A stretch of DNA of 64,000 bases, taken from contig NW_026516215.1 of NCBI RefSeq assembly GCF_025602895.1, positions 310,001-374,000 of the forward strand, written 5' to 3'. Both the position numbers and the translations under genes were made by a program. The first letter of the stretch is position 1. Each line of letters begins with the position of its first letter. The stretch is from Polychytrium aggregatum (lineage: Eukaryota > Chytridiomycota > Chytridiomycetes > Polychytriales). The notes under the pieces were generated by a model. That model had not been told where the DNA came from. It did no database searches and saw nothing but the letters and a program-made list of their open reading frames with translations. Positions 4,567 to 59,112 of the stretch are shown here, in pieces.

Positions 4567-8635
<4,069 letters not shown>

Positions 8636-15606: not shown

Positions 15607-17168
15607 ATGACTACCCCGAACAACATCCCACCTCCCGACATCAATTACTATGCCTTCGATACATACCAGGCCTCCGCTCAGTTTCTGAGGAACCGCCTTC
15701 CACCCGAGTTGCAAGCCATCCAAATCGGCATTATCTGCGGCAGCGGTCTCGGTGGACTGGCCAAGACCCTGGAGGAGCCTATTTGCGAAGTTGAATACAA
15801 GGCAAGGCCCGTTCGTTCGTTCGTTCGTTCGTTCGTTCGTTCGTTCGTTCGTTCGTTCGTTTACGCAGCGCAACTCTGTCGTCTCCCTCCTTCCATCATG
15901 CTCGCGTTCGTCTTGGGTTGTGGGTTCGGGGCTTGTTTCGGGACCCATACAGCCCACGAAATGGCTCATCCATCATCTTGAGCACTTGTCTGCCATTCGC
16001 AAGAGTCGATAGACCGCTCTCGCTGGCCTTTGCTGATTCCTCTGCCGGCTCTCGCCTGTCTCCAGGACATTCCCAACTTTGCCGTCAGCACTGGTATGAA
16101 AGAGTCTGTCTGTCTGTTGATGGCTACGATCCTCGGCTCTTGGTCTATCCATCCTCATCCGGTCTTTGGAACTGACCCCTGCCCGACACGCGCTCGATCT
16201 CGTCTCCCCAGTCCCGGGCCATGTCGGCAAACTGGTCTTTGGAATGCTCGCTGGTCGCGCGACCGTCTGCATGGTCGGCAGGAAGCACATGTACGAAGGT
16301 AACTACGCAGACATGGTCCTGTCCAGCCGTTGTCGCCATCGGCATGCGGTTCGTTATCACCATGCGATTCGTTATCCGCTGATTTTGGCTCTCTTGTTTG
16401 CGGGCTCTAGGCCATTCCCTGCTGAGAACTGTCTTTCCGGTCCGAGTTATGAGACTGCTGGGTGCCCATACCCTCCTCGTCACCAACGCTGCCGGCGGCC
16501 TCAACCCGGACTTCAACGTCGGCGATATCATGATCATCAAGGACCACCTCTCCATTGCCGGCTTTGGTGGCTGCAACCCACTGATCGGAGCCAACGTCGA
16601 TGATTTTGGCCCACGATTCCCGGCCGTATCGAATGCCTATGACTTTGACCTGCGGGTCACTGCCTTCTCCTGTGCCACGGCCTGCGGCCTGGGCCCGTTT
16701 ATGCGCGAAGGGATTTACGCCTTTGTGCCCGGACCCAGCTTCGAGACCCGGGCCGAGGCCCGCTACATTCGAAATGCCGGTGCCGACTCTGTGGGGATGT
16801 CTACTGTCCCTGAAGTCATCATCGCCCGCCATTGCGGCATGCGTGTCCTTGGTGTTTCGCTCATAACTAATATCGTACCTCAAGGACACGGCCGCTCGGC
16901 CATGCAGGCCGCAGCCGAGCTCGAGCCGCCAACTGCGTCGTCTCCCGGATCGGTGTCGTCAGGTCCCGATGTTGCCGCCGTGATGAAGTCCATGGTCAAG
17001 AACGTTGTCGAGGCCGTTTCCAAGATCACCGAGTATCCTCACAAGAACGACGAGAAGGTTCTGGCGAACCACGAGGAGGTGCTCGAGACAAGTAACAAGC
17101 GCTCGCAGGCTATGCAAGAGCTCGTCCGATTGATTGTTGGAAAGATCCCGGAGCCATCCAAGCAGTAG
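15607..17168 (+). CDS. Purine nucleoside phosphorylase (trimeric, PNP family)
   Basis: Phosphorolysis of inosine/guanosine to base plus ribose-1-phosphate in purine salvage, cytosolic. Exons 15607-15801, 16066-16093 (28 nt), 16212-16298 and 16411-17168 sum to 1068 nt, 355 aa. Landmarks: [12 protein letters not shown] (phosphate loop), [53 protein letters not shown] (base-site Glu), [13 protein letters not shown] and GVSLITN. The first intron begins with GC (AAG|GCAAGG), unless it is spliced within the adjacent GTTC repeat. Between SLITN and the family's HEEVL motif there is an extra block of about 45 residues rich in Ser, Pro and charged residues, which makes the protein about 65 residues longer than mammalian PNP (289 aa). 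Function is well supported; the insert has no assigned role. Confidence 0.95.
15811..15860 (+). repeat. (GTTC)12 tetranucleotide repeat in PNP intron 1
   Basis: About 12.5 perfect GTTC units start nine bases inside the first intron. Read in the opposite direction they give an Asn-Glu-Arg-Thr repeat, which is not a gene. Confidence 0.97.
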
Positions 17169-27748: not shown

Positions 27749-30695
27749 TCAGGCCGTCAGACCCTGCGGCAGCACGGGTTGCATCGACTCGCCCGGAGGA
27801 GTGGCTGCTTCCAGTTTAGCTTGGCCCGAGACATACTCCTGCAGGGGATTATAGTCGTCGATCTGAATGAAACCAAAGGGACGACGTATTAGCTTGAATC
27901 ACCTCTGCGTTGATATCCTGCAGCGCCGGATCCTCGGCTCGCTCGCTCCGGCTTCGACGGCCCCCCCCCAACCTACCTTCTCCAACAACGTTGCCGAGTA
28001 TCCGGGCGAGTAGTATCGCACAATTTCCTCGGGATAGCATTCGTTGATGGTACGAATGTACTCGCCCATCTTGGTGCCCATAAGCGAGTTGGGCTGGTTG
28101 TTCGATGCCGTCCCCAAAACTTGTCCTTGCGGTCCACTTCCGTAGCTGGCAGCAATTTCCTGGATGCGCTGCAGCCCTCCAGACGTCACAAATGCTCGGC
28201 GTGCCGCCACGTCATGCGGTAAGATTTTGGCAAACTGGCCAACAACGTACTTGAGGATGTTGGCCGGTGTTGTCTGTTTCAGCAGCGGATCGAGTGCTTC
28301 GAGATGCAGCGTCTTTTCGAGAATGCATTTGAGTGCGCGCTTGGCTTTGGTTTTCAGATCTGCTCCGACCTCACCCTCGCCGTTTTCATCCGAGGATGTA
28401 AGAACCTTGAGGAGCTTGGGGAGAACTGCATGGTCGGCCAGAGTTTTGGCATGGTCGGGAGAATGGCGGCCGATTTGTCCCAAAGACCAAGCGCACGCCG
28501 CCTGTGGGAGCGATATGTAGTTGTTGCAAGGGTTACAATGTGTATCGGGCTCGCAAACCAGGTCTCTGACCCAACGCCGGGTACTGGCAGGACAGGACAG
28601 GGCAGGACAGGACAGGGCAGGACAGGACAGAGCAGGACAGGACAGGGCAGGGCAGAACAAGTTGGCTCCAGGGAATCATGACAGAGTCTTTGTTCAAGAT
28701 GCTCGCGGCTGGCAGAAGACGGATACGCCGTACCTTGATATGTTCCTCGGTTTCGGTGACCAGAGCGTGCGCCAGTGGCGGCACACCCTTGGCGACGATC
28801 ACGGCAAGCGCAAGCGTCTCGGAAAAGGCCGCTATATATCCTAGTGTCATGATACCCGGTAGTCTGGCATTTCCGTGGCTATCGTTGATGTAATCGACGA
28901 CGGCAGCGATGCCGCCGGAATTGACAATCAGTTGGGCAAGCTACAACAGAGTTAAGGTAAAGCCAGTGAGCGAGTGCTGGACTAACATAGCGCTATGCTC
29001 TCGAGTAGATGCTTGCTGCCGATTCGAAGTACACAGTACATCATATTCGAGGCTACATCGGACAGTCACTGCCTGGGCTCACCTCGGGGGTATGCTTGGC
29101 AATCTCGCAAATCAGCGTTGCGGCATTCTTCTTGACATATCCATCGGTGTCTTTCATACAGTTCAGGACGTTCGGGAAGATTTCTCCGTCGACAACAGTC
29201 TCGGCCAAGTCGACAGTGTGCTTAGATATCTGCGAGAGTGCGCTGCAGACCTGTCGGCGCAACTTGGCATCGGGGTTTCCGAGCAGCGGAGCGATGAACG
29301 CGATTGTGTTGGCATCCACGACGGATTGAGCGAGCTGGATATGGTGATGTAAAGTGAGCATTCGAGATGGATCCGAGGCTCACGGCTCTCGATAAGCAAG
29401 GTCACAAAATGAATGCACAACTGCACAACTGCACAACTGCACAACTGCACAACTGCACAACTGCACAACTGCACAACTGCACAACTGCACAACTGCACAA
29501 CTGCACAACTGCACAACTGCACAACTGCACAACTGCACAACTGCACAACTGCACAACTGCGCGGCCGTTACCTCGGGCGAGTGCTTGGCGATATCGCTCA
29601 GGGCCGAGGCAGCGATACGCCGCAGAGACAGCTCTGGCTCCTGCACACACAGCACCAGTAGAGGTACTGCGCTAGCGTCGACGACGGCCTGCGCAAGGTC
29701 TGGATGATGACTCAGTGTAAGGATCTGGTTCGCATTACCTTCGCACCCATTCATCCCTATCGACCTTCGGTGCATACGGGCCGCTCGACACGTGCATAGC
29801 GACTGCGATGAATCGGTGCCAGCATCGACATACCTCCGTTATGACGAGCAATATATCCCAGTGCCCACGCTGCCGACTCTTTGACGCCGGGATCGAATTC
29901 CTCGAGACAGCTCACCAGAGCGTTGAGCGCTCCAGAGTCAACCACGGACTGGGCGAGCTCGGGTGAGTGCTTGGCAACTGCGCGTAAAACGAAAGCAGCC
30001 GCTTTTTTATAGAATCGCTAGAGTTGAGCGAGCAATAATGAGCCGGTTGACAGCCGCAAAGAGAGGACCACAGTATCGCCCAACAATGACGGCAGGTAAA
30101 GAGGCAGATGTATGGATGATTAGTCGCAATGCCATGGCTGATATGTCCACCTTCTTCCCGAGACCCTGTCGGCGGCATTGCTGAGCCCGTGGATGCGCTC
30201 GACAGCTAATTTTCCTTCGTGTTCTACTCTCATGGTTTTGGCTCTGCCGCTCGTTTCTAGTATGCAAACCCGCAAGAGTCGTGTCCTTGGAGCGGCTCTC
30301 AAAGCTCCGTCCCAGGCCCATGCGCGGGCGCCGATTTGGCCGCACTCGACGACGGCAATAGCAAGAACAAGGATGCTGGTTACATTTTGCTCCGAGAGAG
30401 AGTATACGAGTTGCGGGAGGATATCCGAATCGACGACCGACTCGGCAAGCTCCTCGTTGTAATTGGCCAGGCGACCGAGAGCCAGCGCGGCGGCCTGCTG
30501 GATGGCCGGGATATTGTCGAGCAAGAGCGGACGCAGAAGCGACATGACACCAGCGCTCTGCAGCGCCTCGATGTTTGACTCTCGTGACGCCAGATCGGCG
30601 ACAGTCTGGACAAACAGCAGCCGCTCCTTCTGATATTTTTCGAATACCGACAGGACCGCCCGGGTGTTCGCAACGGGCGTTGTGGTTGAATTCAT
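27749..30695 (-). CDS. SPAG6: Sperm-associated antigen 6 / PF16, axonemal central-pair armadillo protein
   Basis: Structural armadillo-repeat protein of the C1 central-pair microtubule, needed for flagellar beating. The start MNSTTTPVANTRAVLSVFEK is followed by FVQTVADLASRESNIEAL and MSLLRPLLLDNIPAIQQAA, then NYNEELAESVVDSDILPQL. Exon 1 is 30384-30695 (phase 0); the next opens at 30017 with RFYKKAAAFVLRAVAKHSPE. Further armadillo blocks: DPGVKESAAWALGYIARHN, RRIAASALSDIAKHSPE, RRQVCSALSQISKHTVDLAE, DGYVKKNAATLICEIAKHTP, LPGIMTLGYIAAFSETLA and AACAWSLGQIGRHSPDHA. The C-terminal part has LKYVVGQFAKILPHD and INECYPEEIVRYYSPGYS. The terminal exon ends at 27749. Block order matches the family over its whole length. 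Several introns carry tandem repeats. Some internal junctions (near 29700-29830) are not resolved. Confidence 0.95.
28588..28655. repeat. GGACAG/GGGCAG tandem repeat in a SPAG6 intron
   Basis: Imperfect units of five (GGACA, GGGCA) run in tandem between SPAG6 coding blocks. Confidence 0.8.
29413..29560. repeat. 8-bp tandem satellite (about 18 copies of CTGCACAA) in a SPAG6 intron
   Basis: Perfect octamer repeats lie between two armadillo-encoding exons. Because 8 is not a multiple of 3, all three frames on a strand read the same short peptide repeat. These frames are not genes. Confidence 0.95.
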
Positions 30696-36844: not shown

Positions 36845-39800
36845 ATGCATCGCAACTTGAATCTCGCCCGCCAAACAGGCATCGACACCAAACGCAGCAG
36901 CGCCGTTCGCCCCGAGAACCATGTGGGCGAGCATGTACTGGTCTCTCTCAGCGAAAGTGGCGATCAGGACGACGACTGGGTCCAAGCAGGTGGGTCTCAG
37001 GCGGAGCACTTGTTGAGGAGACTCTTTTCTACAGATGTCTTGCTCTGCCGCCTCGCGGACTGGCGGGGCTGGTGGCCTCGCCGTTGACTATCGGTTCTGA
37101 TATGCGGTACCTCGGCAAATATATGAACAGTGATCGTATCGGTCGCTACGGACGACGAAACCGGAGCCAGAACCTACACCGTCAAGGTGCTCTCAACCGA
37201 GCAGACCCTCGTCGTCAGCCGAGATCGTCTTCGCTTCACGAGCTCCAGATCAGCGTCGTCTGCAAATCTTTCCTCTGGGCCGGTGTCCAAAACTCTCTCC
37301 AATGGCACCGGCATTAGAAGACAATCTGCCCTTCCAATGAGTAGAGGCAGGAACGAGGGCTCTTCAGAATCGGGTGTGCATGCCACAGCTGGTAAGGCGA
37401 TTCTGGCTCACCTGTCGGTGGCGACGCAAGTTGCTGACGTGAAGGCCTAAAGGAGAAGCGACACTGATAAAGCTCACATAATATCATTTCCAGGCCCCCG
37501 TCCGCCGCCGCCACCACCTCCTCCTCCCATGATGGGTAAGCGAGTGGTATTTGATATTCCAGCACCGATATTCTGGTACTAACTATCCAACTTGGTAGGC
37601 GGACCGCCCCCTCCACCCCCTCCTCCCCCCATAATGGGTAAGTGCTCTCGGGTTGTAATTTGCTGAGTGATTGGTTGATATACTCACGATTATGTTCCGT
37701 CGACAGGTGGACCACCCCCTCCCCCTCCTCCTCCCATGATGGGTAAGTGTTCATGCGAGTGGTATTTGGTATTCCAGACCAACATCTTGGTACTAACTAT
37801 CCAGCTTGGCAGGCGGACCACCCCCTCCACCCCCTCCTCCCATGATGGGTAAGTGTTCATGGGAGTGGTATTTGATATTCCAGCACTGATATTCTGGTAC
37901 TAACTATTCAGCTTGGCAGGCGGACCACCCCCTCCACCCCCTCCTCCCCCCATGATGGGTAAGTGCTCTCGGGTTGTAATTTGCTGAGAGACTGGTTGAT
38001 ATGCTCACGATTATGTTCCGTCGACAGGTGGACCACCCCCTCCCCCTCCTCCTCCCATGATGGGTAAGTGTTCATGCGAGTGGTATTTGATATTCCAGCA
38101 CCGATATTCTGGTACTAACTATCCAACTTGGTAGGCGGACCGCCCCCTCCACCCCCTCCTCCCCCCATAATGGGTAAGTGCTCTCGGGTTGTAATTTGCT
38201 GAGTGATTGGTTGATATGCTCACGATTATGTTCCGTCGACAGGTGGACCACCCCCTCCCCCTCCTCCTCCCATGATGGGTAAGTGTTCATGCGAGTGGTA
38301 TTTGATATTCCAGCACTGATATTCTGGTACTAACTATTCAGCTTGGCAGGCGGACCACCCCCTCCACCCCCTCCTCCCCCCATGATGGGTAAGTGCTCTC
38401 GGGTTGTAATTTGCTGAGAGACTGGTTGATATGCTCACGATTATGTTCCGTCGACAGGTGGACCACCCCCTCCCCCTCCTCCTCCCATGATGGGTAAGTG
38501 TTCATGCGAGTGGTATTTGATATTCCAGCACCGATATTCTGGTACTAACTATCCAACTTGGTAGGCGGACCGCCCCCTCCACCCCCTCCTCCCCCCATAA
38601 TGGGTAAGTGCTCTCGGGTTGTAATTTGCTGAGTGATTGGTTGATATACTCACGATTATGTTCCGTCGACAGGTGGACCACCCCCTCCCCCTCCTCCTCC
38701 CATGATGGGTAAGTGTTCATGCGAGTGGTATTTGATATTCCAGCACCGATATTCTGGTACTAACTATCCAACTTGGTAGGCGGACCGCCCCCTCCACCCC
38801 CTCCTCCCCCCATAATGGGTAAGTGCTCTCGGGTTGTAATTTGCTGAGTGATTGGTTGATATACTCACGATTATGTTCCGTCGACAGGTGGACCACCCCC
38901 TCCCCCTCCTCCTCCCATGATGGGTAAGTGTTCATGCGAGTGGTATTTGGTATTCCAGACCAACATCTTGGTACTAACTATCCAGCTTGGCAGGCGGACC
39001 ACCCCCTCCTCCCCCTGGTCCACCACCTCCCCCTGGTGCCCCCCCACCGCCCCCGCTTGGAGGTAATCCGAATTTGTTTTTGCTGAGGACGGTCGTCGTG
39101 TGTACCGATTTGGCTGCTAACTTTGCCATTGTCGATTCCAGGTTTTGTACCCCCTCCCCCCGCAGCAGCCGCACCTCCAAAGTCCTCTGGCGACCCTATG
39201 GAAGAGATTCGACGGGCAATTCAAGGTGGCGTCAAGCTCCGTAAAGTTAATCGTGAGATTCGACCCCAGCCCGAAGTCAAAAAAGAGGTCTCCGACGACG
39301 AAGCTACAAAGATGGCCCTGGTATTTGACATTCTGAATCTCGTCGAAACCACGGATGGTGGCTCTCCTGAAGAAATTGTATCCAAGCTAGAGCTGGAGAG
39401 CTCTCGAGCGCGAACATACATTTTCCAGTTGATTCGCCGCGGATGGGTCAAGCCTTATCGCTTGTTGGATGGGACTGAGAAGGAGTCCGAGAAGGACCGC
39501 AAGCTGCCCTACAAAGTCTGGCAGGGTAAAGAGGTGACATCGGCAATCGAGGTCCCGGGAAAACACGAGTTTGAGCTTGAAGAGCTGGGGCTGCTCAAGA
39601 ACGAAATCATCCGGGCGCATCTGCATCGCTTCGCGAAAAACTCCAACATTCACACGGTCGACACGATCGTGCTCCTGCGGTGTCCTGGTACGCCGACCGA
39701 GATTCCTCCCTTCGATAAGGTGGAGCCCCCCAAACTGGATTCCAGCTTCAAGGGCACGGTCACCAAGGAGCTGCGACAGCAACGCGAGGACTGGGAGCGG

Positions 39801-40358
39801 CAACGCGACGAATATTTCCAAGCGCCTTGGCCCACCTTCCGACTGTTCATGTCCAAGATCGAGGACCACGACCGAAACATCACCTCAGATTACCAAAAAT
39901 ACTCCAAGGGTCAGGAAGATGCCGGGCGCGTCATCGGCGAGCTCACTCAGATGTTCAAGGAGCTTGACATTCCGCAGCTCACAAAGCTGGTGAGCGATGT
40001 GCCCAAGAAGATCAACGAGGTTGCCGAAAATCTCAGTCGCACATCTGGTATTCAGATCCCAACGTCGAGTGTGAAGGTCTCGACTGTGTTTGTTCGCCGC
40101 ATGGTCGACGAAACCCTTGGAAAGCGCCCGAAGGCCGAAGGGGCCCCCGAGGTCAAGAGTCGAGTGCGCAAGGTGACATTTGTCACGCCAGAGGAGGAGG
40201 AGGAGCCCGAGAAGCTCAAGCTCCAGGGGGCATCCAGGCACGTTCTGAACTCGATCTACAACGCTTCTGGTCGGCATCAGATGCCGATGAGACGTGAGCC
40301 CGCAGGCACCCCTTCCAAGCCATCAAAACCTGTCGGTCGTACCTTTACGATCATGTAA
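36845..40358 (+). CDS. Polyproline and WH2-domain protein with a tandem mini-exon array
   Basis: Exons: 36845-36989, 37131-37391, fifteen proline-rich mini-exons between 37494 and 39062, and 39142-40358. Together they give 2220 nt (739 aa), in phase. Residues about 30-85 (HVLVSLSESGDQDDDWVQA joined to VIVSVATDDETGARTYTVKV) look like a small beta-barrel of Tudor/SH3 type. The middle, about residues 136-335, is a string of GG-P(6-9)-MMG or IMG units, the kind of stretch that binds profilin or SH3 domains. PMEEIRRAIQGGVKLRKVNR matches the WH2 actin-binding motif. Next, SPEEIVSKLELESSRARTYI with FQLIRRGWVKPYRLLDG has the look of a winged helix (inference), followed by about 250 residues of charged, helical sequence. 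The polyproline-WH2 pairing suggests an actin regulator of WASP/verprolin style, but neither end matches those families. Function is inferred. Confidence 0.8.
37494..39062 (+). repeat. Tandem array of 15 phase-1 polyproline mini-exons, 215-bp period
   Basis: Exons: 37494-37535, 37599-37637, 37707-37742, 37813-37848, 37920-37958, 38028-38063, 38135-38173, 38243-38278, 38350-38388, 38458-38493, 38565-38603, 38673-38708, 38780-38818, 38888-38923 and 38994-39062. All but the last are 36, 39 or 42 nt; the last is 69 nt. Every exon begins two bases into a Gly codon and ends on the first base of the next Gly codon. Two intron types alternate: a 69-nt type ending CCGTCGACAG, and a 70-71-nt type (63 nt in the first copy) with a TACTAAC branch site. 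A 36-nt exon, long intron, 39-nt exon and short intron make the 215-bp unit, exact for exon starts 38028, 38243, 38458, 38673 and 38888. Confidence 0.95.
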
Positions 40359-56996: not shown

Positions 56997-57787
56997 TGTT
57001 AGAGTCCGAAGGGGACTCAACGGCAAAAGAAGAAGTGAGCTCGAAGTGAGCTCAGGGAAGGCAAGGGTAAAGTCCGAAGTGGACTCGGAGAGGGAGCGAG
57101 GGAAGCAAAGATCCGTTCAAGATAAGACTAGTCTCGAAATGAGACGTGAGGAACACTCAGAGAATAAAGTAGAAGGCACTTTATTTAGTCCTATTTTGAA
57201 CGCTGAGGTTCGACTACACATCGCGGGGGTCAGGCTATTTATAGACAAGTCCGGACTTGGCAGCGAAGGGCGGCCAAGGGAGGGAAAAGTGGGCGATCGA
57301 GCAGGGCGAAGGGGGCGATGCACGAACGAGGGCCGAGAAGGACCACCGAGACAGGCAGAGAACCAAAGCGAGGGAGGCGCAAGCAAAAGCGAAGCACCTG
57401 GCAGGAGAAACGTGCAAAGGCGAAGCAATGTGACTCAACGTCCAAGAAGCGGATTGGTCAAGTATAAGGTTGGGGCAAATGCATGCGAGATGAACAAGAG
57501 ATCGGGGCGGTCAGGCAGGTCATGAGTCACCGGTGGTGGGACACATGACCGGCAGCCGAATTGCAACCAATCGCAGCAAGGCGCGTGCACAAACAAACCG
57601 GCGCGTGCGAAGAAGACAAAGGAAGCGGAGCAGCGCGGGGAAACGGAAGTGCGGAAGGAGCGGAAATGGCAGGCAAAAGGCGGAAAATTGGAGGGGAACT
57701 GCAAAGCTACACACAAACAAACAGAAAGGCAAAAGAACAGCCAAGTGTGCAGTCAAAGTGGAGAACAAGCAGAAGCTATCCCTAACA
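56997..57787 (-). mobile_element. Element B: 3' LTR (791 bp)
   Basis: The ends are TGTTAG and CTAACA, a perfect 6-bp inverted terminus. On the minus strand it directly follows a polypurine tract (GGAAGGGGATGA) after the pol stop. A TATA core, TCTATAAATAGCC, lies at 57233-57246 (reverse orientation). Confidence 0.8.
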
Positions 57788-58693: not shown

Positions 58694-59112
58694 TGTAAGG
58701 AGTGAACAAGCGCAAGGACGAAGACCAAGTGCTTGGTATGAGCTTTATTAGCTTTTAGCCCCGAACACCAAAGAACAAGTTTTGTTCGAACTGGTGTTCA
58801 ACATAGGCTCAGACATGCAGGGCTATTTATAGACCGGGAGAAGGTCGAGGGGCAAAAGTGGGCGAGAAGGGTGGAGCATCACAGAGAAGCGAGAAGGGGG
58901 TGCGAGAGTGGCTGGTGTGCAAGCGAGAGAGGCTTGGCACAGCCCGGGGACATGTGCCGAGCGGTGGGGGAGGCAGGAAACCAGTAGACGCGGGTGGCAA
59001 CGGCGCGTGCTCATGCATGGGGGCAAACAAACACGTGGGGACTCATGATTGGTGCGGAGGGCGAGAGCATGCGGGACAATCTCATTGGTCCGTTGTGATG
59101 CTGGTCATCACA
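58694..59112 (-). mobile_element. Element C: 3' LTR (419 bp) inserted in element B
   Basis: Reading the minus strand, pol ends at 59113, where a polypurine tract (AAGGAGGAGATAG) abuts TGTGATGACC at 59112. The LTR ends in CTTACA at 58694. The same 14-bp TATA core as in B lies at 58821-58834. The candidate target-site sequence next to it is GAAAC (58689-58693); its partner copy would be beyond the right edge. Confidence 0.85.

Follow-up and report, generated by a model that had tools for sequence, protein, structure and literature searches.

A gene of the chytrid Polychytrium aggregatum, order Polychytriales, encodes its polyproline region in a row of symmetric mini-exons. One genome contains this row in two lengths, 15 and 6 exons, with the gene otherwise identical. 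We consider it quite probable that this WH2-like/polyproline gene contains a coding minisatellite with introns, in which array length changes by exchange of units and sets the number of polyproline blocks in the protein. Length change in coding repeats usually risks a frameshift; here the mini-exons are symmetric, and whole exon-intron units can be added or removed while the frame is kept. More tentatively, the number of putative profilin/SH3 docking blocks may be tuned between haplotypes, and perhaps within a cell by exon skipping.

Gene structure and the public model

The gene occupies positions 36845 to 40358 on the plus strand of the window, the 64,000-nucleotide stretch of contig C35 analysed here. 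Its splice model, inferred from the genomic sequence rather than from RNA, comprises two N-terminal exons, 15 array exons, and one long last exon. Exon 1 (36845-36989) carries the start codon and the N-terminal part, and its 48-aa piece has no Pfam match at E <= 10. Exon 2 (37131-37391) continues the N-terminal region and ends in phase 1. The last exon (39142-40358) encodes a P4A4PP linker, a WH2-like motif (SGDPMEEIRRAIQGGVKLRK, 39186-39245), and a C-terminal region of 370 aa up to the stop codon. Translation of the model on C35, the long copy, yields a product of 739 aa.

The public counterpart is the uncharacterized P. aggregatum protein BJ171DRAFT_473837, also on C35. The NCBI model was made independently and likewise splices mini-exons together, 12 in number, but it disagrees with the present model at both ends. 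It starts within exon 37599-37637 and lacks both N-terminal exons. At the other end it joins 38923 to 39142, which omits the terminal polyproline exon in frame; this omission is perhaps a matter of prediction only.

Anatomy of the mini-exon array

The array spans 37494-39062 on the plus strand and contains 15 consecutive exons, every one of a length divisible by three and all in phase 1-1. A first exon of 42 nt is followed by 13 mini-exons, each 36 or 39 nt long, and by a 69-nt last exon. The run of 15 small phase 1-1 exons is as the initial annotation had described it. Its accompanying statement that each exon encodes one GG-P(n)-MMG block applies to 13 of the 15, which encode GG-P8/9-(M/I)MG, but not to the two outermost. 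The first exon, F (37494-37535), encodes GPRP9MMG, and the terminal polyproline exon, T (38994-39062), encodes GGP6GP5GAP5LG. Type A mini-exons measure 39 nt and encode GG-P9-(M/I)MG (e.g., 37599-37637), and type B mini-exons measure 36 nt and encode GG-P8-MMG (e.g., 37707-37742). Across the 13 mini-exons, amino-acid variation is limited to the number of prolines and to M or I.

All 14 array introns are GT-AG, with lengths of 63, 69, 70, or 71 nt and GTAAGT donors apart from one GTAAGC. They fall into two types. The type-a introns of the long array contain a perfect TACTAAC and measure 71 nt, except for two of 70 nt and the first of 63 nt, whereas type-b introns measure 69 nt and lack TACTAAC. 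The complete order is F-a-A-b-B-a-h-a-A-b-B-a-A-b-B-a-A-b-B-a-A-b-B-a-A-b-B-a-T. Alternation of two intron types, part of the first description, is therefore present but has one break. It lies at exon h (37813-37848, 36 nt), a hybrid-looking exon flanked by two type-a introns. The upstream one of these (37743-37812, 70 nt) has the same sequence as the intron that closes the array (38924-38993).

Downstream of exon h, five successive A-b-B-a units of 215, 215, 215, 215, and 214 bp fill 37920-38993. Their exons are located at 37920-37958 and 38028-38063 in unit 1, 38135-38173 and 38243-38278 in unit 2, 38350-38388 and 38458-38493 in unit 3, 38565-38603 and 38673-38708 in unit 4, and 38780-38818 and 38888-38923 in unit 5, all on the plus strand. 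The period of 215 bp, at first given as exact over five units, is exact over the four steps from 37920 to 38780, and the final step to the terminal exon measures 214. TRF reports a period of 215, 5.6 copies, and a score of 2190.

Repeats of the same type are homogenised. With both copies of the locus taken together (see below), the three 70-nt a introns and the eight B exons are each 100% identical among themselves; the eight b introns reach 97.2%, as do the eight A exons, and the six 71-nt a introns reach 94.1%. The view that introns a and b are diverged sisters is unsupported, since 148 of 500 shuffles matched or beat the score of their alignment. Because the two types are not sisters by sequence, the alternation is one between two different introns. 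The A units show a second alternation over part of the array, between CCG/ATA and CCA/ATG subtypes, which suggests that two-unit blocks have been copied as well. Exon h is most simply read as a recombinant product: an exchange inside polyproline exon sequence would have shifted the array by half a unit and kept the frame. The interchangeability of exons without frameshift that had been proposed thus holds, and exon h looks like an instance of it.

The 215-bp unit consists of 75 exon and 140 intron bases, a sum not divisible by three, and only in the spliced message is the frame kept from one repeat to the next. If single introns are retained, an in-frame stop follows for 12 of the 14, and two introns of 70 nt give no stop within the translated stretch. 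A block read as a whole without splicing is ruled out by the broken frame together with these stops.

Near-identical introns at regular spacing could also have arisen from introner-like mobile introns that inserted repeatedly into a polyproline exon. We regard this origin as ruled out, or at best extremely improbable, because such introns are confined to two loci rather than dispersed over many genes. With the first type-a intron as query, 11 of 11 matches (E <= 10) lie in the C35 locus and its counterpart on contig C380, and the whole array, type b included, matches these two loci only. Moreover, the exons are duplicated along with the introns and the order of types is retained, which points to duplication of units and not to insertion.

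A second, shorter copy in the same genome

The search of the 64.7-Mb assembly with the whole array returned two matches including the array itself, the other being on C380. Window positions 1-56996 are collinear with C380:60027-116071, and ahead of the window C35:299001-301000 matches C380:49018-51014 at 99.6%. When the two 2-kb bins with the array are set aside, C35 and C380 differ by 90 substitutions (0.17%) and 17 indel events in roughly 52,999 aligned bases; with every bin included, the totals are 148 substitutions and 35 indel events in 56,501. Within the gene, the two copies show 0 differences in the 649 bases that lead from the start codon up to the array, in the 79-base intron that follows it, and in the 1217-base last exon.

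The array itself differs greatly. The C380 copy contains six exons in the order F-a-A-b-B-a-A-b-B-a-T, against 15 on C35. It is 966 bp shorter, with nine exons fewer, and its product has 627 aa instead of 739. Two near-identical loci that lie nine exons apart indicate that the array changes much faster than its surroundings, and the expectation that copy number changes is thereby borne out.

An assembly error, in which collapse or false expansion rather than real alleles produced the two arrays, appears improbable. Assemblers struggle with tandem 215-bp units, and the identical in-gene flanks of the two copies would fit such an error. Each array, however, has pieces of its own: three of the 11 pieces in the C380 array (one A exon and one intron of each type) do not occur in the C35 array, which in turn has seven distinct pieces without a counterpart in the short one. 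These private pieces on each side rule out that the short array is a collapsed long one. Both arrays also end in the same last intron and exon, and the 90 substitutions outside the array mark C35 and C380 as distinct sequences.

The two copies are most likely haplotypes, with C380 an unpurged haplotype contig, although C380 may instead be a recent segmental duplicate. Doubling within the genome was sampled with seven probes, four of which fell in high-copy repeats and were uninformative. Probe C35:311000-316000, inside the window, has one second copy at 99-100%, as does probe C35:700001-702000, whose second copy is on C382. A probe on C1 has no second copy, which shows that doubling does not extend to the whole assembly. 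Array lengths are those given in the public assembly, which represents one strain.

Several features of the surrounding sequence accompany this comparison. Collinearity between C35 and C380 ends in high-copy repeats, from window position 56997 and C380 position 116072 onwards. A 1494-bp stretch from window position 57200 has at least 39 further 100% matches in the genome, and C380:116200-118232 is likewise high-copy. The window also contains the perfect simple repeats TGA x47 (5382-5523), CGTT x13 (15810-15861), and TGCACAAC x18 (29414-29560). The alignment of the two contigs breaks at CGTT x13, and indels occur in the 2-kb bin holding TGA x47.

An older plan beneath a recent array

The C-terminal 404 aa identify one clear paralog in the genome, at C371:155120-156037 (33% identical, E 8e-42). 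The 2 kb read at this locus contain six complete polyproline exons of 42, 48, 54, 45, 39, and 36 nt. All six are multiples of three in one frame with phase-1 breaks, and the first three end in MMG. The introns of the paralog measure 77-185 nt and share, with one another and with the array introns, short words only (longest exact match 12 bases, E 0.002). A paralog with unrelated introns thus has one polyproline block per symmetric exon, which indicates that the one-block-per-exon plan is old and that the homogenised 215-bp array is recent growth on this plan. The exon plan of what had been taken for a novel build is older than the array itself.

A pattern scan of the genome extended this observation. 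The pattern, a short exon with a run of five proline codons flanked by CAGG and GTRAGT, matched 19 times, against 0 for a reversed-pattern control. Nine matches lie on C35, three on C380, three on the paralog contig C371, and two each on C12 and C112. The latter define a third locus on the minus strand, at C12:58263-58307 and 58716-58760 and at C112:476923-476967 and 477376-477420. Its polyproline mini-exons measure 36 nt, would read GFGGP9G if in phase 1, and lie 453 bp apart. These exons are identical on C12 and C112 and equally spaced, which suggests a third gene present in two copies. The plan of one block per symmetric mini-exon is thus common to the two paralogs and probably also to a third gene.

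In addition, the end of the WH2-like motif and the region after it weakly match C24:456034-456261 (E 0.014, 30%, two stops), a possible further family member or remnant. Protein searches in other species returned the self record alone, at E <= 0.001 among 4568 candidates, and at E <= 10 and E <= 1 among the best 7994 and 7992 candidates, respectively. Such searches need shared 5-residue words and may miss distant relatives; the protein of the C371 paralog is also absent from their results. With no sequence relative found outside the species, the role of the protein is not anchored.

Polyproline blocks and the WH2-like motif

The protein begins its array-encoded part with P8/P9 blocks, 14 in the long copy or 5 in the short one when exon F is included. 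These are followed by the product of the terminal polyproline exon, the WH2-like motif, and the 370-aa region. A WH2 motif next to the blocks had been reported from the start, and the stretch in question, SGDPMEE(I/L)RRAIQGGVKL(R/K)K, is identical at 18 of 20 positions between paralogs that are otherwise 33% identical. Its score nonetheless falls short of Pfam membership: short pieces reach 14.7 bits in this gene and 18.1 in the paralog against a curated WH2 (PF02205) cut-off of 23.1, and a longer paralog piece scores 14.8 bits, also below the cut-off. Pfam lists no WH2 at E <= 1 in the 627-aa product. We therefore use the term WH2-like for a motif that may work as WH2 does.

Other signatures give little further guidance. 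The 627-aa product has no Pfam match above a curated cut-off, and no FH2 match up to E 1 that would place it among the formins. A winged-helix-like match, HTH_IclR at 18.5 bits, lies below its cut-off of 22 and is not taken as an identity. Sequence searches of the PDB returned 0 matches at E <= 1 for the 404-aa C-terminus and one weak match for the WH2-like piece, to N-WASP (E 1.7). The 370-aa region has no known fold, and AlphaFold, run from one sequence, gives a mean pLDDT of 40. The tail of WASP is acidic and ends in tryptophan, and inspection of the C-terminus here revealed no tail of this kind.

Polyproline tracks in FH1 regions are described as binding profilin-actin (PMC5969902). By analogy, the blocks might gather profilin-actin or SH3 proteins beside the putative actin-binding motif. 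The same source reports that mDia1, with its FH1 cut from 14 tracks to 2, still elongates faster, though less strongly (PMC5969902). Since two tracks still speed elongation, the number of blocks may matter little.

How array length may be set

The reading we prefer, a coding minisatellite with introns, can be set out as a sequence of steps. A separate symmetric (1-1) mini-exon encodes each polyproline block, and two exon types together with two unrelated, homogenised intron types form the 215-bp unit of two exons and two introns. Whole units would be gained or lost through unequal crossing-over or gene conversion between near-identical units. Every product would stay in frame, because all exons are multiples of three and in phase 1-1. 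All exons would normally be spliced in by intron definition, so that copy number in the genome, and not alternative splicing, would mainly set protein length. Copy number would then determine whether the protein has 739 or 627 aa, and how many putative docking blocks stand by the WH2-like motif.

Exon skipping is allowed by phase and hence possible. In its strong form, array exons would be skipped in varying numbers within one cell, and a single allele would give a ladder of protein lengths. This scenario draws on the symmetry of every array exon, the near-uniform GTAAGT donors (one GTAAGC), and the presence of a perfect TACTAAC in a introns but not in b introns; given the latter, B exons could be skipped for the next strong acceptor. 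The public model, moreover, skips the terminal polyproline exon in frame. We nevertheless judge it unlikely. Fungal introns as short as these are usually recognised through intron definition, a mode that tends to pair adjacent splice sites, and the skip in the public model may be prediction only. An RNA structure that would force skipping was not seen in three units compared with 20 shuffles: the pre-mRNA of window positions 38028-38672 is less folded than its shuffles (z +3.76), and none of the 20 dinucleotide shuffles folds less stably.

Two further observations concern splicing more generally. A and B exons may differ in splicing strength, TACTAAC being found in a introns alone. The weak folding of the 38028-38672 pre-mRNA perhaps leaves splice sites open.

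A more serious contender is that array length is a neutral by-product. Under this explanation, unequal exchange proceeds without benefit, selection purges frame-breaking products, and the remaining length variation has no effect. Its chance of being right is only somewhat short of even. Array growth is recent and confined to one gene, the unit variants are mixed as drift under exchange predicts, and mDia1 retains much function with few tracks (PMC5969902). Conversely, the exon plan is retained in the old paralog and probably in a third locus, and the amino-acid blocks are conserved across the 13 mini-exons. A kept plan and conserved blocks imply that the block itself is useful, yet they say nothing on the number of blocks.

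On a broader level, we tentatively propose that this lineage stores the docking regions of several genes with one block per mini-exon, and that here two alternating, homogenised introns have made the arrangement a frame-safe, heritable length dial, perhaps supplemented by exon skipping. If block number alters profilin-actin delivery or SH3 binding, the locus would offer a natural allelic series for the number of tracks needed. It also allows a test in a fungus, with very short units, of whether introns channel unequal crossing-over.

Comparison with known systems

The architecture was first thought to be new. Among the papers listed in searches of the open-access literature, none described a fungal gene of this build, but similar intron-bearing repeats are reported in spider silk (PMC9779670) and in LPA (PMC7613587). 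In the Argiope genes MaSp2.1a and MaSp2.2a, two short intron types, each nearly identical among its copies, alternate; the core unit consists of two exons and two introns, and the introns are homogenised to a mean of 97.6% (PMC9779670). The authors propose that introns steer unequal crossing-over and state that they know of no comparable alternation in any other eukaryotic gene (PMC9779670). The chytrid array likewise alternates two intron types, which are 94-100% identical within type, with one break at 37813-37848. It has a comparable core unit, the 215-bp A-b-B-a, and both systems yield low-complexity repeat proteins. The genes are not homologous, and no descent from spidroins is implied. 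MaSp2 is a structural protein of spider silk, whereas the present gene has 36-39-nt exons of one block each, belongs to a chytrid, probably encodes an actin-handling protein, and occurs with 6 and with 15 exons in one genome. On the length-dial reading, this fungal gene would have arrived independently at the intron alternation of spider silk, with units so small that each exon is one complete docking block.

Human LPA, the best-known coding repeat that has introns and copy-number alleles, offers a second parallel. Its kringle IV type 2 unit of about 5.5 kb contains exons of 160 and 182 bp, with introns of about 4 kb within and about 1.2 kb between units (PMC7613587). The same source describes wide differences in copy number between alleles and unit subtypes mixed in one array (PMC7613587). 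Both systems have two exons and two alternating introns per unit, and in both the number of exon units varies, here 15 versus 6; we infer that the two chytrid copies are alleles in the manner of LPA. As that source presents it, the two LPA exons jointly encode one folded kringle and are separated by long introns, unlike the P. aggregatum array exons, each of which is a complete block that can stand alone.

Strings of very short exons are also known from the micro-exon genes of Schistosoma, described with exons of 3-81 bp, splice variants, introns of 100 to almost 5000 bp, and secreted products (PMC10526429). The same source cites work from 1988 on 81-base exons repeated in tandem in Schistosoma, which represents an early example of small repeated exons (PMC10526429). 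The array described here differs in its introns of 63-71 nt and in units that are 94-100% alike within type.

In muscle, exon use in the PEVK region of titin is regulated by alternative splicing, and we know of no recent homogenised array there. The length of this proline-rich extensible region is set by the number of exons used, according to PMC11040099. As in the FH1 regions of formins and in WASP-type regions, polyproline blocks stand beside a putative actin-binding part (PMC5969902), but the chytrid protein differs from formins and WASP in having neither an FH2 match nor an acidic tail ending in tryptophan. Against this background, the new elements are one complete block per 36-39-nt exon, a fungal polyproline protein built in this way, and two array lengths side by side in one genome.
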